Of a DNA stretch of 57,474 nucleotides, positions 5,655-37,286 are shown piece by piece. The translations under genes and the position numbers were made by a program. How positions within the stretch are numbered: position 1 is the stretch's first letter; the number at the start of each line of letters is the position of its first letter. The notes under the pieces are model-generated. The model was not told where the DNA came from. It worked only from the letters and a program-made list of their open reading frames with translations, and did not search any database. The stretch is taken from positions 1 through 57,474 of the forward strand of contig JAFVPI010000051.1 of NCBI GenBank assembly GCA_017505405.1, written 5' to 3'. This DNA is from Mogibacterium sp. (GTDB lineage Bacteria; Bacillota; Clostridia; Peptostreptococcales; Anaerovoracaceae).

Positions 5655-7550
5655 ATGGATATTTATGTAGATATAAACGCAGAACCTAATGGTGACGGCA
5701 GCGCGGAAAGGCCGCTCAGAAAAATAAATGACGCAGCTGCGATCGCATGTCCGGGAGATACGGTCCTTGTAGCTCCCGGTGTATATCGTGAATCTGTGGA
5801 TCCGAAGAATTCCGGTGCTGAGGACAAAAGGATAACATATGTCAGCACTGAGCCACTCGGCGCGGTCATAACCGGTGCGGAGTGTATTTCGCAGTGGGAG
5901 CGGTATTCTGACAGCGTCTGGTTCGCAAGGATCAGCAACAGCCTGTTTGGAGACTACAATCCGTACACGACGCTTGTGTACGGCGACTGGTACTTTGCGA
6001 AGGCGGACAAGCATACGGGCTGCGTGTACCTGAACGATGAGGCCATGTATGAGACCTCCGGCCTTGAAGACTGTATCCGGGGAGAGATCAGCGATGTCAG
6101 CTGGGATCCGGATAATTCGAGGCTGAAGTGGTACGCGGAGCAGGACGCAGAGCGCGATGAGACCGTGATATATGCGAATTTTCAGGGGCTGGATCCTAAC
6201 TGCGAAAAAGTTGAGATCAATGTAAGGCGCGAATGTTTCTGGCCTTCCGGAACAGGGAAAAGCTATATCACTGTCAGGGGCTTCAAAGTAGAGAAAGCGG
6301 CCACGACATGGGCGCCTCCTGCAGCCTTTCAGGACGGCATGATAGGACCGCACTGGAGCAGGGGCTGGATAATAGAGGATTGTGAGATAGCAAACAGCAA
6401 GTGCGCCGGTATCTCGCTCGGAAGGTACTATGATCCTGACAACGACAATTATTTCTCTACTAAGTATGTAAAAAGCCCTACCCAGATGGAAAGGGACTCC
6501 GTGTGCCGGGGCCAGTATCACGGATGGCTAAAGGAGAACATCGGCAGCCACATCATCAGGCGCAACGATATACACCATTGCCAGCAGGGGGGCATCATCG
6601 GCCGCATGGGAGGCGTCTTCAGTATAATAGAGGACAATCACATCCATCATATTAATAATATGATGGAGCTCGGAGGAGCGGAGATAGCCGGAATAAAACT
6701 GCATGCAGCCATAGATGTGATCATACGCAGAAACCATATCCACCACTGTACGATGGGGGTCTGGTGCGACTGGGAAGCTCAGGGAACCAGGATAAGCTGC
6801 AATTATCTGCACGATAATCAGCGTCCGCAGGGCGTCAGACAGCTGAAGGGCGGCATGATGTCACAGGACCTGTTTGTAGAAGTGAGCCACGGCCCTACTC
6901 TGATCGACAACAACATCCTGCTTTCAGAAGTGAGCCTGCGCTTTGCCACGCAGGGTATCGCAATGGTACACAACCTTATTTGCGGAGCCTTTACATGCGT
7001 GGGGGAGGGAACGAGCTGGAGGTATACTCCGTATCACATCCCTCACCGCACAGAGGTCATGGGATTCATGACGATCCTGCACGGTGACAACAGATTCTAC
7101 AATAACATCTTTGTTCAGAAGTGGCCTGAAGATGATGCGGAGATACTGCACGATATCGATGACGGACGTGAGTATGAGAACCGCAGAGTCGGAACATGGG
7201 TGTTCGATGAGTACCCGACTTACGGGGAGTGGCATTCGCAGTTCGACTTTTCGAGACCGGCTGATATGGCTGAACTCGAGAAGGTGCATTTCGGCCATCT
7301 GCCTGTATGGTCAGAGGGCAATGTCTATCTCAACGGCGCACGTGCATGCAGACAGGAGAAAAAAGGAAAATGCAGACTGATAACTTCAGACATACTCGGT
7401 AAGGCGTTTGAACCGGAGCAGAGGTTTGAGTCTCCTGACGGGTCTGAGATAATTTTTGATACAGATTATTATGGCGATGTCCGCAAGGGGCAGATAATAC
7501 CGGGACCATTCGCCTATCTGCATACAGACGGAATACCGTCAGATAAATAA
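5655..7550 (+). CDS. GH120-type beta-xylosidase (right-handed beta-helix protein)
   Basis: A 631-residue cytoplasmic protein without signal peptide. It begins with a DUF1565-like strand (YVDINAEPNGDGSAERPLRKI) and is rich in beta-helix rungs (IIRRNDIHHC, IIEDNHIHHI, IIRRNHIHHC). The overall pattern, including WAPPAAFQDGMIGPHWS, GVWCDWEAQGTRIS and FVEVSHGP, matches what I recall of GH120 beta-xylosidases such as XylC of Thermoanaerobacterium saccharolyticum. In those the nucleophile Asp and acid/base Glu lie in the DWEAQG and VEVSHGP motifs; here they are Asp372 and Glu409. The spacing between them is longer by an insertion at about residues 389-404. It would release xylose from short xylo-oligosaccharides. 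It heads a run with a glycerophosphodiesterase, a carboxylesterase and a GPH symporter. Family confidence is good; substrate is inferred. Confidence 0.82.
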   Translation: MDIYVDINAEPNGDGSAERPLRKINDAAAIACPGDTVLVAPGVYRESVDPKNSGAEDKRITYVSTEPLGAVITGAECISQWERYSDSVWFARISNSLFGDYNPYTTLVYGDWYFAKADKHTGCVYLNDEAMYETSGLEDCIRGEISDVSWDPDNSRLKWYAEQDAERDETVIYANFQGLDPNCEKVEINVRRECFWPSGTGKSYITVRGFKVEKAATTWAPPAAFQDGMIGPHWSRGWIIEDCEIANSKCAGISLGRYYDPDNDNYFSTKYVKSPTQMERDSVCRGQYHGWLKENIGSHIIRRNDIHHCQQGGIIGRMGGVFSIIEDNHIHHINNMMELGGAEIAGIKLHAAIDVIIRRNHIHHCTMGVWCDWEAQGTRISCNYLHDNQRPQGVRQLKGGMMSQDLFVEVSHGPTLIDNNILLSEVSLRFATQGIAMVHNLICGAFTCVGEGTSWRYTPYHIPHRTEVMGFMTILHGDNRFYNNIFVQKWPEDDAEILHDIDDGREYENRRVGTWVFDEYPTYGEWHSQFDFSRPADMAELEKVHFGHLPVWSEGNVYLNGARACRQEKKGKCRLITSDILGKAFEPEQRFESPDGSEIIFDTDYYGDVRKGQIIPGPFAYLHTDGIPSDK

Positions 7551-7577
7551 ACTATAAAAAAGGAGATGCAGATCCGC

Positions 7578-8612
7578 ATGAAGTATTACGATATGGAATT
7601 TCACCGGGGCGGCAGGGATGCGCGCCCTGAGAATACACTATGGTCTTATCAGTATTCGCTGGAGAACGGCGCGCTGACCATTGAATGCGACATGCAGCTG
7701 GCCGGCGACGGACAGATAGTGATGTCGCACAATCCGGCCCTGAATCCCGACATAACGACGGATGCAGAGGGCAGACGCATTGAGACGGACGATCACTACA
7801 TACATGACATGACGCTTGAGGAAATACAGTCGTTCAATGTGGGGAATATGGATACAGCTGCGGAATACTATGAACTGCACGGACGCACACAGGTGCAGAC
7901 GGAAGCATTCATTCCATCGCTGCGCCAGATGTTTGAGCTGGTCAGGGACAGCGGCAATGAAGACATAAGGATGAGCATTGAGGCAAAGGCCTATGCTGAT
8001 CCTGCCCTCGGGACCAGATACGAGAAGAATCCTGACTACGAAAAGCTGCTCAGGGAGTTCCTGGCGCTTGTGAACGAATTCGGCTTCCGCGACCGGGTGA
8101 TACTTCAGTCGTTCGACTGGGCGGCGCTTGTAAAGATGAAGGAGCTTGATCCGGAGATAAGGACTATAGCTTTATACAGCGAACAGCCCTCATGGGGCAC
8201 ACCGGACGCGACAACGCTCTGGCTGGACAGGGACGAGCCGTCGCCGTGGCTTGCGGGGCTCAACATCCATGATTTCGACGGAGACCCTGTACGCGCGGCG
8301 CATTCGCTCGGACTGGATGATATCAGTCCTTTCTTTAAGGAGATAACAAAGGAACTCACCGACGAAGCTCATGAGCTGGGAATGAGAGTAGTCCCGTGGA
8401 CGGTCAGTTTTAAAGAAGATATGGAGATCCTTTATGAGATGGGGGTCGACGGTATAATAACGGACAAGCCATGGGTGTTGAGAGAGTTCCTGGAGGAGAA
8501 GGGTGAAAACCTGCTTCCGAAAAGGAAGGTGGATCTGCCGTATCACCTCGACCCGGATCATCTTGAGACTGAGGACAGGAAATCTGAAAGCGGAAGAGAC
8601 GCTGCATATTAG
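7578..8612 (+). CDS. Glycerophosphodiester phosphodiesterase family protein
   Basis: A 344-residue member of the GDPD TIM-barrel family, which hydrolyses glycerophosphodiesters to glycerol 3-phosphate and an alcohol. The catalytic signature is complete: HRGGRDARPENT near residue 9, then TIECDMQLAGDGQIVMSHNP with the metal-binding Glu and Asp and second His, SIEAKAY in mid-protein, and the C-terminal VVPWTV and GVDGIITDKP motifs. The ATG at 7566 is directly fused to the AGGAG site, so translation more likely starts at 7578, 12 bp after it. There is no signal peptide, so it is cytoplasmic. The gene lies 27 bp behind the xylosidase gene and 18 bp before the esterase gene, pointing to one operon. 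Its substrate could be a glycerophosphodiester or a related sugar phosphodiester. Confidence 0.88.
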   Translation: MKYYDMEFHRGGRDARPENTLWSYQYSLENGALTIECDMQLAGDGQIVMSHNPALNPDITTDAEGRRIETDDHYIHDMTLEEIQSFNVGNMDTAAEYYELHGRTQVQTEAFIPSLRQMFELVRDSGNEDIRMSIEAKAYADPALGTRYEKNPDYEKLLREFLALVNEFGFRDRVILQSFDWAALVKMKELDPEIRTIALYSEQPSWGTPDATTLWLDRDEPSPWLAGLNIHDFDGDPVRAAHSLGLDDISPFFKEITKELTDEAHELGMRVVPWTVSFKEDMEILYEMGVDGIITDKPWVLREFLEEKGENLLPKRKVDLPYHLDPDHLETEDRKSESGRDAAY

Positions 8613-8630
8613 TGCATATAAAGGAGAACG

Positions 8631-9974
8631 ATGAAAAAGGTTACCATTGAGACCGGGCTCGGCAAAGTTACCGGTACCGAAGAAAAGGGCATACGCATGT
8701 TCCGCGGCATTCCGTACGCGGTCACGGAACGTTTCGAACTCCCTGAACCTTATCCGGAGTGGGACGAATTCGATGCGACCGGACAGGAAACCGACTGCTT
8801 TCAGTTCAGGGCATACCATAAGGAATCCATCGGCCGCTACTGGTTCTATCACAGCGAATTCAGATATGGCCAGGACATCCCGGACTGGAAATTTGCTGAA
8901 TCCCCGATGACCCTCAACGTGATCACGCGTGCAGACGCTGATAAAGATCCTGTGCTCGTATATATACATGGAGGTTCATTCGAAAACGGAAGCGTGGGAG
9001 AGCATCCTTACGGAACGAGTACCGAATACGCTGAACGCGGAATAGTATATGTGTCGCTCGGATACAGGCTCAATGTGTTCGGACTGTATAAATCCGGCAA
9101 TTATGGACTCCATGACATGGTGTTCGGCCTTCGCTGGATCAAAGAGCATATCGCTGATTTCGGCGGCGACCCTGAGAAGATCACTATAATGGGACAGTCC
9201 GCCGGAGCGATGGCAGTGATGGACCTGCTCTACACTCAGATCCTGAAGGATGTGGTAAAAGGCGCGGTGATGATGTCGGGCGCGGGCAACGTGCCGGATA
9301 TTGCCGGCCCGCTGACACCTGAGGAATCCGAAGAAAGATTCTGGTCAAAGGTAAGGGAGCGCGCAGGGGCGAAGACTGAAGAGGAATTCAGAAGGCTCCC
9401 GGATCAGACGATATTTGACGCCTGGTACGCAACGGGCCGCGAGATCGGAAATGTTCGTACACAGCAGCCGGGCATCGACGGCACCATAATTCCTAAGAAA
9501 CCATCACAGATAATGAAGGAAAACACCTATCTTGATGTTCCCATTATTGCCGGAGTAACATCGCAGGACTTCATGCCTTATCTTATATTCGAGCTTGCGC
9601 TCAGACTGGGGAAGCTGCATGCGAAACGCGGGCAGTCGCCTGTATGGGGCTACATGTTCGATAAGACTCCGCCGGGAGACAGGTTCAAGGCTTACCATGC
9701 TGCGGATCTTTGGTATATGTTCGGCAACTTTGACAAGAGCTGGCGCCCGTTTGATGAGAACGACCGCAGACTTAAGGACGAGATGGCGGATTACGTGGCG
9801 AATTTCGTAAAGACCGGCGATCCGAACGGAGCAGGCCTGCAGGAATGGCCGGCGATCAGCAAAAGGAACAGCAGGTTCCGCCTGTTTGACGGAAAGGGCG
9901 GAGGCCTGATCGGTCCGGCTCAATGCAGACTCAAGGAGTGGAACAGCTTCCTGCGCGACAAAGGACCAATGTAA
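8631..9974 (+). CDS. Type-B carboxylesterase
   Basis: A 447-residue alpha/beta-hydrolase of the carboxylesterase type-B family, slightly shorter than the usual 480-550. Seen motifs are RGIPYA near residue 25, the oxyanion-hole motif HGGSF at 113-117, GNYGLHD at 157-162, and the nucleophile elbow GQSAGA with Ser190; the His of the triad is probably in the YHAADLWYMFGN region. The start has an AAAGGAG site 5 bp upstream, and there is no signal peptide. Its neighbours are a xylosidase and a sugar symporter, so it may remove acetyl or feruloyl esters from imported xylo-oligosaccharides (inference). It is followed by the palindromic element at 9977. Confidence 0.9.
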   Translation: MKKVTIETGLGKVTGTEEKGIRMFRGIPYAVTERFELPEPYPEWDEFDATGQETDCFQFRAYHKESIGRYWFYHSEFRYGQDIPDWKFAESPMTLNVITRADADKDPVLVYIHGGSFENGSVGEHPYGTSTEYAERGIVYVSLGYRLNVFGLYKSGNYGLHDMVFGLRWIKEHIADFGGDPEKITIMGQSAGAMAVMDLLYTQILKDVVKGAVMMSGAGNVPDIAGPLTPEESEERFWSKVRERAGAKTEEEFRRLPDQTIFDAWYATGREIGNVRTQQPGIDGTIIPKKPSQIMKENTYLDVPIIAGVTSQDFMPYLIFELALRLGKLHAKRGQSPVWGYMFDKTPPGDRFKAYHAADLWYMFGNFDKSWRPFDENDRRLKDEMADYVANFVKTGDPNGAGLQEWPAISKRNSRFRLFDGKGGGLIGPAQCRLKEWNSFLRDKGPM

Positions 9975-30997: not shown

Positions 30998-31047
30998 AGC
31001 GACGTTTAAGACGTTCTCCAGTCTTACGTTGCGTCTAAAAATTTTTT
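30993..31047 (+). promoter_or_regulatory. Hairpin with T run in the ackA leader (possible attenuator)
   Basis: A long imperfect stem: 30993-31012 pairs with 31021-31041 (outer TTTTTAG / CTAAAAA, inner TAAGAC / GTCTTA), followed by six Ts just before the ackA ribosome binding site. It has the form of an intrinsic terminator inside the leader, or a 5-prime stabilising hairpin. Confidence 0.6.
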
Positions 31048-31064
31048 ATGAAAGGAAACATAAC

Positions 31065-32261
31065 ATGATAATTCTGGTAGTAAACACAGGAAGTTCCTCT
31101 CTCAAGTATCAGCTGATCAACATGGACAATGAGGCAGTTCTTGCTAAGGGACTCTGCGAAAGAATCGGCGAAGACGGTCACATGAATTACAAGACAGATG
31201 CCGGCACAGTATTTGACAAGGACATCGCACTGCCTGATCACGGCGTTGCAATGCAGCTCGTAATCGATGCTCTGACCGACAAGGAGCACGGTGTTATCGC
31301 AGACATGAGCGAGATCGGTGCTGTAGGCCACAGGATCGTACAGGGAGGATACATCTTCGATAAGTCGGAGATCATCACTGACGAGGTAGAAGCAGGAATC
31401 GAAGAACTCTGCACACTCGGACCTCTCCACAATCCTCCTGCACTCGTAGGAATCAGAGCCTGCAAGAAGGTTCTGCCGAACACACCGGGCGTTGTTGTAT
31501 TCGATACAACATTCCACAGAACAATGCCTGATGAATGCAAATACTATGCTATCCCTTGGGTATATGCCGAGAAGTATCATGTTCAGAGATACGGAGCTCA
31601 CGGCACGAGCCACCGCTATGTTGCCAACAGAGTAGCAGAGCTCATGGGCAAGGATCTCAAGGACATCAACGTTATCACATGCCACCTCGGAAACGGTTCC
31701 TCGATCACAGCAGTCAAGGACGGCAAGTGCTATGACACATCGATGGGCCTCACGCCGCTCGAAGGTCTCGTAATGGGAACACGCTGCGGATCGATCGACC
31801 CTACAGTTGTCAGCTTCATCTATGAGCAGACAGGAATGCCTGTAAAAGAGATCACAGACATGATGACAAAGAAGTCCGGACTCCTCGCTATTTCCGAGAT
31901 CTCCGGAGACTGCAGAGACATCACAAAGGCAGAGGCAGAGGGCAACCACAAGGCTCACGTTGCCAGAGAGATGCTCCTCAGATCAGTCAAGCGCTTCATC
32001 GGTGCTTACGCTGCAGAGCTTGGTCATGTAGATGCCATGGTATTCACAGCAGGTATCGGCGAGAACGATATCGAGCTGAGAGAAAAGGTTTGCGCAAACC
32101 TCGGATTCATGGATCTCTACATTGACAAAGAGAAGAACAACTGCAGAGGCAAAGAGGTTGAGATCACAGGCGAAGGTTCAAAGGTCAGAGTATTCGTCAT
32201 TCCGACCAACGAAGAGCTGATGATAGCCAAGGATACTCAGGCTCTCGTAGAGGCTATGTAA
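31065..32261 (+). CDS. ackA: Acetate kinase
   Basis: A 398-residue cytoplasmic acetate kinase that makes ATP and acetate from acetyl phosphate. Signatures are the N-terminal LVVNTGSSSLKYQL, the substrate motif VFDTTFH, the ATP-binding CHLGNGSS and MGLTPLEGLVMGTRCG, and FTAGIGEN. The start is ATG 31065, with AAAGGAA 8 bp upstream; a longer frame from 31029 is rejected. It stands directly upstream of PFOR, so pyruvate to acetyl-CoA to acetate steps are clustered, although no phosphotransacetylase gene is visible here. Its leader carries a terminator-like hairpin (30993-31047). Confidence 0.97.
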   Translation: MIILVVNTGSSSLKYQLINMDNEAVLAKGLCERIGEDGHMNYKTDAGTVFDKDIALPDHGVAMQLVIDALTDKEHGVIADMSEIGAVGHRIVQGGYIFDKSEIITDEVEAGIEELCTLGPLHNPPALVGIRACKKVLPNTPGVVVFDTTFHRTMPDECKYYAIPWVYAEKYHVQRYGAHGTSHRYVANRVAELMGKDLKDINVITCHLGNGSSITAVKDGKCYDTSMGLTPLEGLVMGTRCGSIDPTVVSFIYEQTGMPVKEITDMMTKKSGLLAISEISGDCRDITKAEAEGNHKAHVAREMLLRSVKRFIGAYAAELGHVDAMVFTAGIGENDIELREKVCANLGFMDLYIDKEKNNCRGKEVEITGEGSKVRVFVIPTNEELMIAKDTQALVEAM

Positions 32262-32282
32262 AACCCTGTTATTCCTACGGCA

Positions 32283-32315
32283 TTGCCGCAATGGAGTAAT
32301 CCCTGATTGCGGTAA
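32283..32315 (+). other. Hairpin between ackA and PFOR
   Basis: TTGCCGCAAT (32283-32292) pairs with ATTGCGGTAA (32306-32315), nine of ten positions, without a T run. It may mark the ackA mRNA end or PFOR leader; its role is unclear. Confidence 0.4.
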
Positions 32316-32439
32316 AGCATATATGGGATTGGGACCAAATCACGTTTGGAAATAATTATTTCACCATATTTATTTCAAAAAAGTGCTTTTTTACTAACTA
32401 TCACTTAATTTCAAAAATCTTTTAAAGGGAGATGAAAGA

Positions 32440-34815
32440 ATGAAGAGACAATTCAAAACTATGGACGGCAACAACGCTGCTGCACATGTCTCCTACGCGT
32501 TCACAGAGGTATCCGGAATCTATCCGATTACTCCGTCCTCGCCGATGGCAGACTATGTAGACCAGTGGGCAGCTGCTGGACGCAAGAACATCTTCGGATC
32601 GACAGTACAGGTAGTCGAGATGGAGTCTGAAGCTGGTGCTGCTGGTGCTGTACACGGCTCACTCGGAGCTGGCGCACTCACCACAACTTACACAGCTTCC
32701 CAGGGACTTCTCCTGATGATCCCGAACATGTACAAGATCGCTGGAGAACTTCTTCCGGCAGTATTCCATGTATCGGCTCGTACAGTTTCGACTCACGCGC
32801 TGAACATCTTCGGAGACCACTCAGACGTTTATGCTTGCCGTCAGACAGGATTCGCAATGCTCGCAGAGAGCAATGTACAGGAAGTTATGGACCTCGCTCC
32901 TGTAGCTCACCTGGCTGCTATCGAGGGCAGAGTGCCTTTCCTGAACTTCTTCGACGGATTCAGAACATCCCACGAGATCCAGAAAGTCGCTGTATGGGAC
33001 TATGAAGATCTCAAGGAAATGTGCGACATGGAAGCTGTTAAGAAATTCCGCGACGCATGCCTGAACCCAGATCATCCTCATCTGAGAGGATCTCATGAGA
33101 ATGGCGACGTATTCTTCCAGCACAGAGAAGCATGCAACAAGTTCTATGATGCAGTTCCTGAAGTTGTTGAGAAGTACATGGCCAAGATCAATGAGAAACT
33201 CGGAACAGACTATCAGCTCTTCAACTACTATGGTGCAGCTGATGCTGACAGAGTCATCATCGCTATGGGATCCATCTGCGACGTTGCTGAGGAAGTTATC
33301 GACTACCTCAATGCAAAGGGCGAGAAGGTAGGTCTCATCAAGGTAAGACTTTACAGACCGTTCAGAGCAGACAAGCTGATCGCCGCACTGCCAAAGACAT
33401 GCAAGAAGGTTGCAGTTCTCGACAGAACAAAAGAGCCTGGCGCTCTCGGCGAGCCACTCTACCTCGACGTAATGACAGCATTCGCTGAGGCAGGAATGAG
33501 CGATGTAAAGGTTATCGGAGGACGTTACGGACTCGGTTCGAAGGATACACCTCCGGCATCAGTATTCGCAGTTTATGATGAGCTTCTCAAGGACGAGCCA
33601 AAGAGAAAGTTCACTATCGGCATCGTAGATGACGTTACGAACCTCTCGCTCGAGGAGAAGCCGGCACCGATCACAGCTCCTTCGGGAACTATCGAGTGCA
33701 AGTTCTGGGGTCTCGGCGGCGACGGAACAGTCGGAGCCAACAAGAACTCCATCAAGATCATCGGAGACCACACAGACAAGTACGTACAGGCTTACTTCCA
33801 GTATGACTCCAAGAAGACAGGCGGTGTTACAATTTCTCACCTGAGATTCGGTGACAAGCCAATCAAGAGCTCGTACTACATCAACAAGGCTGACTTCGTT
33901 GCTTGCCACAACCCATCCTACATTGAGAAGGGATTCAAGATCGTTCAGGACGTTAAGCCGGGCGGAATCTTCCTGATCAACTGCCAGTGGAAGCCTGAGG
34001 AAGTCGGACAGCACCTCAACGCTGCTGCTAAGAAGTACATCGCTGAGAACAACATCCAGCTGTACATCATCGACGCTATCGATCTCTGCGCTAAGATCGG
34101 AATGGGCAAGAGAACAAATACAACTCTCCAGTCCGCATTCTTCTCACTCGCAGAGGTACTGCCAAAGGCAGACGCAATCAAGTACATGAAGGACGCTGCT
34201 ACGAAGTCCTACCTCAAGAAGGGTCAGAACATCGTAGACATGAACCACAAGGCTATCGACGCCGGTGCTGACGCTCTTGTCAAGATCGACGTTCCTGCTG
34301 AGTGGGCTAATCCTGCTGCTGACGCTGAGAAGGCTCCTCTCGAGGGACCTGAAGCTCTCGTTAAGCAGGTCAAGAACATCCTGCTGCCGATCGACAACAT
34401 GGATGGAGACAGCCTGCCTGTATCCGCATTCCTGCCACACGTTGACGGTGAGTGGGAACTCGGAGCTTCCGCATACGAGAAGAGAGGCGTTGCTGTTATG
34501 GTTCCTGAGTGGGACAGCACAAAGTGCGCACAGTGCAACAGATGCGCATTCGTATGCCCACATGCTACTATCAGACCATATCTGCTCGACGAAGCTGAGA
34601 TGGCAGCTGCTCCGGAAGGATTCAAGGCTGTTGATCACAAGCTGAGCAAGGGCGCATATAAGTATGGTCTCGCTGTATCCCCGCTCGATTGTATGGGATG
34701 CGGAGTATGCGTAACAGTATGCCCAACCAAGTCGCTTGAAATGAAGCCGCTTGAAGAGCAGCTCTCAGAGCAGAAGAACTTCGACTATGCTGTAAAGAGC
34801 GTATCCGTCAAGTAG
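32440..34815 (+). CDS. nifJ: Pyruvate:ferredoxin oxidoreductase, N-terminal part (ends at in-frame TAG)
   Basis: The first 791 residues of PFOR (domains I to V). They contain the N-terminal pyrimidine-binding domain (YPITPSSPMADYVDQW), the gamma-domain stretch GLGGDGTVGANKNSIKII, and the ferredoxin domain with two 4Fe-4S motifs: CAQCNRC...C (Cys696, 699, 702, 706) and CMGCGVC...C (751, 754, 757, 761). The frame ends at TAG (34813-34815) within the linker VKSVSVK before the TPP domain, which continues in the same frame right after the TAG. The full reading frame, with one residue for TAG, is 1176 codons long, the normal PFOR length. GGGAG lies upstream of the ATG. It converts pyruvate and CoA to acetyl-CoA, CO2 and reduced ferredoxin; whether a whole enzyme is made depends on the TAG. 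Confidence 0.95.
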   Translation: MKRQFKTMDGNNAAAHVSYAFTEVSGIYPITPSSPMADYVDQWAAAGRKNIFGSTVQVVEMESEAGAAGAVHGSLGAGALTTTYTASQGLLLMIPNMYKIAGELLPAVFHVSARTVSTHALNIFGDHSDVYACRQTGFAMLAESNVQEVMDLAPVAHLAAIEGRVPFLNFFDGFRTSHEIQKVAVWDYEDLKEMCDMEAVKKFRDACLNPDHPHLRGSHENGDVFFQHREACNKFYDAVPEVVEKYMAKINEKLGTDYQLFNYYGAADADRVIIAMGSICDVAEEVIDYLNAKGEKVGLIKVRLYRPFRADKLIAALPKTCKKVAVLDRTKEPGALGEPLYLDVMTAFAEAGMSDVKVIGGRYGLGSKDTPPASVFAVYDELLKDEPKRKFTIGIVDDVTNLSLEEKPAPITAPSGTIECKFWGLGGDGTVGANKNSIKIIGDHTDKYVQAYFQYDSKKTGGVTISHLRFGDKPIKSSYYINKADFVACHNPSYIEKGFKIVQDVKPGGIFLINCQWKPEEVGQHLNAAAKKYIAENNIQLYIIDAIDLCAKIGMGKRTNTTLQSAFFSLAEVLPKADAIKYMKDAATKSYLKKGQNIVDMNHKAIDAGADALVKIDVPAEWANPAADAEKAPLEGPEALVKQVKNILLPIDNMDGDSLPVSAFLPHVDGEWELGASAYEKRGVAVMVPEWDSTKCAQCNRCAFVCPHATIRPYLLDEAEMAAAPEGFKAVDHKLSKGAYKYGLAVSPLDCMGCGVCVTVCPTKSLEMKPLEEQLSEQKNFDYAVKSVSVK
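34813..34815 (+). other. In-frame TAG codon inside the PFOR gene
   Basis: Context AAG-TAG-GAA between the Fd domain and the TPP domain. Coding quality and the reading frame are unbroken on both sides, no indel is needed to join them, and no ATG, GTG or TTG follows in frame before 35086. TAG ends many other genes here (for example at 11777, 20926, 42531, 49429), so it is a working stop in this genome. Confidence 0.9.
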
Positions 34816-35970
34816 GAATTCGCAGACAACAGCAACCTGATCAAGTCGCAGTTCAAGACTCCGCTCCTCGAGTTCTCGGGCTCCTGCGCAGGATGTGCTG
34901 AGACATCATATGCAAGACTTATCACACAGCTTTGCGGAGATCACACATTCATCTCCAACGCTACAGGATGCTCCTCAATCTGGGGCGGCCCTGGCGCAAC
35001 AGCACCTTACACAACTGACGCATGCGGACATGGTCCTGCATGGAACAACTCCCTCTTCGAGGACAACGCTGAGCACGGTCTCGGAATGAGAATGGCTATC
35101 AAGGCCAGAAGAGCTAAGATCAAGGCTGACGTTGAGGCTCTGGTAGAGGCAGGAGTACCTGCAGAGGTCAAGGATGCAGCTGACGCATGGTTCGCAGTAT
35201 TCAATGATCCTGTTGAGTCAAGAGCTAAGGGCGAAGAGCTCGCAGCAGCACTCGAGAAGGCAGGCATCGGAGCTGAGATCGTAGAGCGCAAAGACCTCCT
35301 CGGCGAGAAGACCGTATGGATCTTCGGCGGAGACGGCTGGGCATACGATATCGGTTACGGCGGACTCGATCACGTACTCGCAAGCGGCGAGAACGTAAAC
35401 GTAATGGTATTCGATACAGAGGTTTACTCCAACACAGGCGGACAGGCTTCCAAGGCTTCCAACATCGGACAGGTAGCACAGTTCGCTGCAGCTGGTAAGG
35501 CAATCGAGAAGAAGTCGCTGTCTCAGATCGCTATGGCTTACGGCTATGTATACGTAGCTCAGGTAGCTATGGGCGCTGACCCGAATCAGACTCTGAAGGC
35601 AATGAACGAAGCTATCGCTTACGACGGCCCATCCCTGATCATCGGATACTCCCCATGCGAGATGCACTCCATCAAGGGCGGCATGATGAACTGCCAGATG
35701 GAGATGAAGAAGGCTGTAGATTGCGGTTACTGGAACCTCTTCAGATTCAACCCTGCTGCAAAGGCAGAAGGCAAGAATCCGTTCACACTGGACAGCAAGG
35801 TACCTGCAGGCGGATATCAGGAATTCCTGAAGAACGAAGCACGTTACAACAGACTGACCAGAGAGAATCCGGAAAGAGCAGAGAAGCTCTTCGCGGAGAA
35901 CGAGGCAGCTGCAATGGCACGTTACGAGAAGCTGAAGAAGTTCGTAGACTTCTACGCACCGGAAGCTTAA
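34816..35970 (+). CDS. nifJ: Pyruvate:ferredoxin oxidoreductase, C-terminal TPP/4Fe-4S part
   Basis: 384 codons in the same frame as the N-terminal part, directly after the TAG. It holds SQFKTPLLEFSGSCAGCAETSY (proximal cluster Cys pair), NATGCSSIWGG (third Cys), the TPP-binding motif GDGWAYDIGYGGLDHVLASGENVNVMVFDTEVYSNTGG, and YSPCEMHSI (fourth cluster Cys). If translation had to start anew, the first usable codon is ATG 35086, which would remove the CAGC pair and NATGC and so three of the four cluster ligands, making a separate functional subunit unlikely. The TAA at 35968-35970 is followed by a UUCG-loop terminator. Readthrough, a nonsense allele or a sequence error are the alternatives. 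Confidence 0.88.
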   Translation, partial: EFADNSNLIKSQFKTPLLEFSGSCAGCAETSYARLITQLCGDHTFISNATGCSSIWGGPGATAPYTTDACGHGPAWNNSLFEDNAEHGLGMRMAIKARRAKIKADVEALVEAGVPAEVKDAADAWFAVFNDPVESRAKGEELAAALEKAGIGAEIVERKDLLGEKTVWIFGGDGWAYDIGYGGLDHVLASGENVNVMVFDTEVYSNTGGQASKASNIGQVAQFAAAGKAIEKKSLSQIAMAYGYVYVAQVAMGADPNQTLKAMNEAIAYDGPSLIIGYSPCEMHSIKGGMMNCQMEMKKAVDCGYWNLFRFNPAAKAEGKNPFTLDSKVPAGGYQEFLKNEARYNRLTRENPERAEKLFAENEAAAMARYEKLKKFVDFYAPEA

Positions 35971-35994
35971 TCGCAGCACAACATCACATCAAAG

Positions 35995-36022
35995 GAGCCG
36001 GTCTTCGGACCGGCTCTTTTAT
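35995..36022 (+). terminator. Rho-independent terminator after PFOR
   Basis: Stem GAGCCGGTC / GACCGGCTC (35995-36003 with 36008-36016) around a TTCG tetraloop, followed by TTTTATT. Confidence 0.92.
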
Positions 36023-36037
36023 TACATATCGTAAATA

Positions 36038-36198
36038 CTGCAGACGGAATGGATCCTTTCGCTCGTGCCTCGTTGTCTCGAAGCACAAGCCGCTTCATCG
36101 CTCCTCCAATGGCTCCGGGAATAAGTTCCCGGATTCCTTTCGCTGTCGGAGCCCTGCCGCGGTGTGCTTCAGTTCCTCCTCGGACCATCTCGCTGCAG
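36038..36198. repeat. Long intergenic palindromic element B (161 bp)
   Basis: The ends pair imperfectly: CTGCAGACGGAATGGATCC (36038-36056) with GGACCATCTCGCTGCAG (36182-36198). Inside is a perfect hairpin TCCGGGAA / TTCCCGGA (around 36116-36135) enclosed by GCTCCG / CGGAGC. The sequence GGATCCTTTCGCT recurs as GGATTCCTTTCGCT. The core CTCGTTGTCTCGAA resembles elements A and C. It fills much of the 347-bp PFOR-fba gap; no gene is seen in it. Confidence 0.65.
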
Positions 36199-36253
36199 GA
36201 TTCATGCCGCCTGCTTTCATTCTCTTATGTATTTTAAAGAAGCAGAATTGCGG

Positions 36254-36282
36254 TTGAATGTACGTACGATAGAAGGTAAAAT
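36254..36282 (+). promoter_or_regulatory. Promoter of fba
   Basis: TTGAAT (36254-36259), a 17-bp spacer and TAAAAT (36277-36282), about 35 bp upstream of the fba start codon. Confidence 0.75.
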
Positions 36283-36317
36283 AAAAGTGTGTTATTTATG
36301 AAGAAGGAGGTACACAT

Positions 36318-37286
36318 ATGCCACTCGTAACAACAACCGAAATGTTCAAGAAGGCTTATGACGGCGGATATGCTATCGGAGCTTTCAACGTAAACAATAT
36401 GGAGATCGTACAGGGCATCACAGAAGCTGCCGGCGAGCTCAGAAGCCCTGTAATCCTGCAGGTTTCGAAGGGCGCACGCGCTTATGCTAACCACACATAT
36501 CTGGTTAAGCTGGTAGAGGCTGCTATCATCGAGAACCCTGAGATCCCTATTGCACTCCACCTTGACCACGGTGATTCATTCGAGCTTTGCAAGAGCTGCA
36601 TCGACGGAGGATTCACTTCGGTAATGATCGACATGTCTTCGAAGTCATTCGAAGAAAACATCGCTGTAACAAAGCAGGTAGTAGATTATGCTCATGCTCA
36701 TGGCGTAGTAGTAGAGGCTGAACTCGGAACACTCGCCGGAGTAGAGGATGAGGTAGTCGTAGAAGCCGGACACGAGAGCTATACAAGACCTGAAGAGGTT
36801 GAGGAGTTCGTAAGCAGAACAGGCTGCGATTCTCTGGCAATCGCAATCGGAACTTCCCATGGCGCATACAAGTTCACACCGGCACAGTGCACAAGAAACG
36901 AAGAAGGCATACTCGTACCGCCTCCACTGCGTTTCGACGTACTCGAAGAAGTAACAAAGAGACTGCCGGGATTCCCGATCGTTCTCCACGGATCTTCATC
37001 TGTTCCGCAGGAGTTCGTAAAGATAGTAAATACATACGGCGGCAACATGCCTGACGCTGTAGGTATTCCTGAAGCACAGCTCCGTAAGGCAGCAGAGTCT
37101 GCAGTCTGCAAGATCAACATCGACTCGGATATCCGTCTCGCAATGACAGGTAACATCCGTAAGTACTTCGCAGAGCATCCTGATCACTTCGACCCGCGTC
37201 AGTATCTGAAGCCGGCAAGACAGGCTGTAAAGGATATGGTAGCTCACAAGATCGTAAACGTTCTCGGATCGGACGGAAAGATTTAG
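36318..37286 (+). CDS. fba: Class II fructose-bisphosphate aldolase
   Basis: A 322-residue zinc-dependent aldolase that splits fructose 1,6-bisphosphate in glycolysis. Motifs include HLDHGD (residues 81-86, with catalytic Asp83 and Zn ligand His84), VEAELG with a metal-binding Glu, GTSHGAYKF with the second Zn His, and LHGSSS with the third. The ending KINIDSDIRLAMT is typical. The AAGAAGGAGG site is 8 bp upstream and a TTGAAT-17-TAAAAT promoter is visible. It is a single-gene transcript between two terminators. Codon use matches the other central-metabolism genes nearby. Confidence 0.96.
   Translation: MPLVTTTEMFKKAYDGGYAIGAFNVNNMEIVQGITEAAGELRSPVILQVSKGARAYANHTYLVKLVEAAIIENPEIPIALHLDHGDSFELCKSCIDGGFTSVMIDMSSKSFEENIAVTKQVVDYAHAHGVVVEAELGTLAGVEDEVVVEAGHESYTRPEEVEEFVSRTGCDSLAIAIGTSHGAYKFTPAQCTRNEEGILVPPPLRFDVLEEVTKRLPGFPIVLHGSSSVPQEFVKIVNTYGGNMPDAVGIPEAQLRKAAESAVCKINIDSDIRLAMTGNIRKYFAEHPDHFDPRQYLKPARQAVKDMVAHKIVNVLGSDGKI

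Follow-up and report, generated by a model that had tools for sequence, protein, structure and literature searches.

An ordinary single-chain PFOR gene interrupted by a private in-frame TAG in one draft Mogibacterium genome

We conclude that the gene for PFOR, the enzyme coupling the oxidation of pyruvate to acetyl-CoA with the reduction of ferredoxin, is of the usual single-chain type and carries a private stop codon in one draft genome of a Mogibacterium species. A one-base error in the consensus or the assembly is, in our judgement, the most likely origin of this stop. The stretch of DNA analysed here (the window, 57,474 nucleotides) is contig C33 of a draft genome (G000) of 2,305,637 bases in 148 contigs, which is 95.29% complete and 2.74% contaminated. 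On its forward strand, the PFOR frame at 32440–35970 runs for 791 codons, meets a TAG at 34813–34815 and continues for 384 codons to the terminal stop, giving the following features:

32440..34812, forward strand: PFOR codons 1–791, comprising the alpha, gamma and ferredoxin-like (delta) parts; open frame matching NCBIfam TIGR02176 at positions 1–782 with 1207.5 bits.
34813..34815, forward strand: in-frame TAG, codon 792 of 1176, in the linker that joins the ferredoxin-like part to the TPP part; all 24 congener loci spanning this position carry a sense codon instead.
34816..35970, forward strand: PFOR codons 793–1176 and the terminal stop, comprising the TPP (beta) part; matching TIGR02176 at positions 790–1165 with 500.2 bits.

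The two parts match adjoining positions of the family model, which has a length of 1167. Read through the TAG, the chain scores 1723.3 bits against a cut-off of 911.35 and covers positions 1–1165, so that the family cut-off is passed along the whole chain, but the chain itself is broken at codon 792. Neither a second stop nor a frameshift was seen between 32440 and 35970. The gene layout proposed in the first-pass annotation, 791 codons followed by a TAG and continuation in the same frame with no other damage, is therefore upheld by both the frame and the profile matches. In length, domain order and score the gene is the same as other fused PFORs; it differs from the TIGR02176 relatives compared in the TAG at codon 792, which is found in the present assembly only. 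The genome check for a second intact copy that had been recommended at the outset returned no further fused PFOR by TIGR02176 profile match, and the interrupted gene is the only fused PFOR of the genome. It lies between acetate kinase (ackA) and class II fructose-bisphosphate aldolase (fba), each scoring above its model cut-off, in an order that is kept in the nearest congener, G024. The contig is syntenic with G024 on both sides of the gene, and no gross misassembly is thus visible, a point that speaks against an error.

Comparison with relatives places the stop in this assembly alone. We compared 27 congener loci, 24 of which cover the site, and all 24 have a sense codon there. A stop in the middle of the linker is likewise absent from all 80 PFOR loci of named genomes: in 67 of them the frame stays open for 1100 codons or more, in 12 it stays open up to the end of the retrieved sequence or of the contig, and one (L036) has a deletion with a frameshift far from the TAG site. 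Open PFOR frames of at least 1100 codons were found in 18 of 35 congeners and in 4 further congeners, and 59 of 60 genomes (own genome included) gave a hit to the TPP part at E ≤ 0.001, some of the weaker hits being other enzymes. Intact PFOR copies exist widely. The protein, stop aside, is 98.4% identical to the intact protein of G024, and within the part covered by at least eight congeners the only other residue private to the present copy is at codon 776, located 16 codons upstream of the stop, where the linker differs from one species to another. The first-pass annotation had named two observations that would speak against a functional stop, a sense codon in close relatives or an intact second PFOR beside a decaying copy; the former was found, the latter was not.

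The pattern of substitutions narrows the origin of the stop further. Relative to G024, the gene shows 115 synonymous and 19 other codon differences, the stop being one of the 19, which corresponds to dN 0.0072, dS 0.166 and dN/dS of about 0.04 for the whole gene. Values of dN 0.0076 (13 codons) and dS 0.163 (77 codons) upstream of the stop compare with dN 0.0062 (5 codons) and dS 0.171 (38 codons) downstream of it, and relaxed selection after the stop is not detected in this comparison, dN/dS being no higher than before it. A TPP part left untranslated for much of the branch would have piled up amino-acid changes, and since it has not, the TAG either does not exist in nature, arose extremely recently, or is read through. 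The three choices offered initially, sequence error, fresh nonsense allele and readthrough, are the right list. Long-term decay into a pseudogene is rejected on the same grounds, given the low dN/dS with no rise downstream of the stop and the lack of further lesions.

The preferred explanation is that the TAG would stem from a single wrong base in the consensus or the assembly of a draft made up of many contigs. With an error as the most likely origin, the living organism probably makes one normal PFOR chain of 1176 residues. Support for this explanation comes from the sense codon in every covering congener locus, from the low dN/dS that is alike on both sides of the stop, and from the TAG being the sole lesion of the gene and the sole mid-gene stop among 28 frames shared with G024. 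Further support comes from the observation that PFOR assembles badly in the genus, as seen from an excess of contig ends and from three unrelated breaks. At least 9 of 35 congeners (G003, G007, G008, G009, G010, G017, G018, G028 and G033) have a TPP match that stops where the contig stops, within the last third of PFOR, whereas 2.2 would be expected if contig ends were placed at random (P about 0.0002, calculated from rounded sizes). The three breaks are (i) a scramble of pieces from the ferredoxin and TPP parts with a change of frame in the linker, in the G004 copy at a contig end (L004 2634–2982), (ii) a loss of about 39 codons with a frameshift in the G035 copy (L036, about 2796), and (iii) a frameshift near codon 640 in the G031 copy (L027, about 1030–1040). 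None of these faults is a single substitution; they consist of indels, scrambles and contig ends, and they render an error credible without proving it. That this particular base is wrong is our inference.

The PFOR gene has a DNA identity of 96.1% to its G024 counterpart, compared to 72.9–93.9% for ten other chosen window genes, with 93.9% for ackA and 93.4% for fba as its direct neighbours. Such high identity may let short reads of related species mix. Viewed along the window, ackA, PFOR and fba together (31029–37286) form a stretch of 93–96% DNA identity to G024, and the other tested window genes lie at 73–89%. There is precedent for errors of this kind: in PMC1852416, 28 of 73 interrupted genes checked in one finished genome are reported to be sequencing errors. 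The interrupted coding sequences described there likewise include one in-frame stop with the rest of the gene undamaged, but in that study resequencing and mass spectrometry settled each case, whereas the present stop is known from the assembly alone.

What counts against an error is that the assembly is not riddled with such stops. Among 28 G024 open reading frames that match the window at more than 60% identity, 22 are whole in one frame without a stop. The other six comprise PFOR, with the sole mid-gene stop (codon 792 of 1176), three frames with stops no more than 25 residues from an end, and two that match in part only and contain no stop. In the reverse direction, 26 of 28 window frames match G024 whole; the two remaining ones are interrupted by a stop in G024, one at residue 15 of 257 and the other at residue 89 of 556. 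We further scanned 426 kb by codon usage, which flagged 21 stops. The next in-frame start follows the PFOR stop after 90 codons and the other 20 stops after no more than 21 codons, leaving PFOR as the sole flagged stop without a start within about 20 codons. The sensitivity of the scan is about 23% if a start within 12 codons is counted as a miss and 43% otherwise, so that a few similar stops could have been missed.

The next most likely reading, though we regard it as rather unlikely, is that the TAG is a real and very recent nonsense allele, either confined to the strain or fixed among the cells sampled, which would cut PFOR short ahead of the TPP part and inactivate it. In its favour, the stop amounts to one clean substitution, and the gene around it is undamaged and in synteny. 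Against it, the codons downstream of the stop differ from G024 in the amino acid at 5 positions and synonymously at 38, and without relaxed selection after the stop such an allele would have to be very young. Under this reading, and with the same reservation, another enzyme would have to oxidise pyruvate. Pyruvate formate-lyase is rejected as a by-pass, since no protein of the genome passes the cut-off of 994 and two relatives score 150 and 129 bits. A second candidate is encoded on another contig of the same bin:

L193 (G000:C101) 5934–9931: genes for a four-subunit 2-oxoacid:ferredoxin oxidoreductase and a butyrate-kinase-like gene.

On contig C101, the gamma, alpha and beta subunits of the oxidoreductase are encoded together with a ferredoxin-like delta that lies between them; the butyrate-kinase-like gene follows (these last two names read from sequence), and a permease-like gene lies upstream on the other strand. 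Being intact, this predicted enzyme could in principle stand in for PFOR. Two observations weaken its candidacy. The best model for the alpha subunit is PorA, at 452 of 550 bits and thus below the cut-off, and pyruvate is not assigned as its substrate. Counterparts of the beta subunit at 43–47% identity are present in 5 of 39 congeners, others being more distant and often matched via PFOR itself, and the contig may for that reason be acquired or wrongly binned. Its GC content is 48.1%, and its composition is not unusual.

Readthrough of a real TAG by a near-cognate or undetected tRNA, with truncated and full-length PFOR both being made, is improbable. Purifying selection continues downstream of the stop, as readthrough predicts, but a stop that does not exist would leave an identical pattern. 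We counted 60 tRNA genes in the draft (Rfam RF00005), 59 of which were typed by ARAGORN on fetched regions and the last of which was read by eye as UUC. An anticodon CUA occurs in none of the 60 genes in the 95.3% complete draft, and at this completeness a tRNA gene could be missing. The best match to the PylS model scores 40 bits against a cut-off of 178.15; 13 of 14 control genomes also give matches, one of them above the cut-off. With these two results, the search for pylS and a CUA tRNA suggested by the first-pass annotation gave no PylS above the cut-off and no CUA tRNA in the draft genome, and pyrrolysine decoding of UAG is rejected. RF1 is intact (550 bits, cut-off 423), and TAG closes 15 of 37 mechanically chosen window frames of at least 200 codons and 68 of 266 long frames in the 426 kb read, the broken PFOR being among both the 15 and the 68. 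The earlier statement that TAG ends at least a dozen window genes and that global reassignment is unlikely is in agreement with these counts, and with TAG still an ordinary terminator and RF1 intact we reject global UAG reassignment.

RNA structure provides no further argument for readthrough. The 120 bases from the stop onward fold with z = +0.73, a stability equalled or exceeded by 152 of 200 shuffles, so that a stable downstream structure is rejected. The 123 bases that end with the stop (34693–34815) are more stable than all 200 shuffles (z = −2.69); this fold lies in coding sequence upstream of the stop and carries no weight in the verdict. Bacterial genes with in-frame stops that remain under purifying selection have been reported, and the readthrough stops proposed in PMC7918605 resemble the present one in being an in-frame TAG with purifying selection around it. 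That study required stops at the same place in at least two species in order to remove errors, whereas the present stop occurs in one genome and in 0 of 24 congener loci covering the site. We found no published stop codon or readthrough in PFOR in one search of one open-access library, which is weak evidence of absence; PMC13277313 reports a stop-codon change in phoU, not in PFOR.

A stronger version, in which a genuine TAG is fixed in the lineage and efficient UAG readthrough without a dedicated tRNA yields truncated and full-length forms in a set ratio, is very improbable. The first-pass annotation had rated the prospect of functional recoding, and with it a regulatory switch, as being of high interest. 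Taken with the stop being present in no relative seen, the lack of a CUA tRNA and of a PylS above cut-off, the intact RF1 and the lack of a stable fold after the stop do not bear this out, and the high interest is unwarranted. That the stop constitutes a new kind of genetic switch is not supported; we found no evidence for it.

Least probable of all, to the point where we give it hardly any credence, is that the TAG has turned PFOR into two chains translated independently of each other, the TPP part being initiated downstream as a beta subunit. The break does fall at the boundary of delta-like and beta-like parts, as located by the TIGR02176 matches, and this boundary is a natural division in multi-subunit enzymes. 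An in-frame CTG is also available at 34837, but no ribosome-binding motif is seen close upstream of it, and the linkers of L015, L019 and L026, all of which lack a stop, contain a CTG as well. Apart from this CTG and ATC codons, the frame offers nothing before 35086 (codon 883), the first in-frame ATG, GTG or TTG downstream of the TAG, and separate translation of the C-terminal part is rejected for this reason. A start at 35086 would drop three cysteines of the TPP part, at codons 816, 819 and 843 by visual count, which, from solved PFOR structures, we take to be three of the four ligands of the proximal cluster. The frame reading thus confirms the initial observations that no ATG, GTG or TTG follows the stop in frame ahead of 35086 and that a start there would cost three cysteines.

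An assembly error being the preferred reading, the main message is one of caution: a stop in a single draft genome, within a gene prone to poor assembly across its genus, calls for support from reads ahead of any interpretation. If a genuine TAG were nevertheless read through, it would represent a translational control point in ferredoxin-based fermentation, and a central fermentation enzyme of this organism would be controlled at a stop codon.
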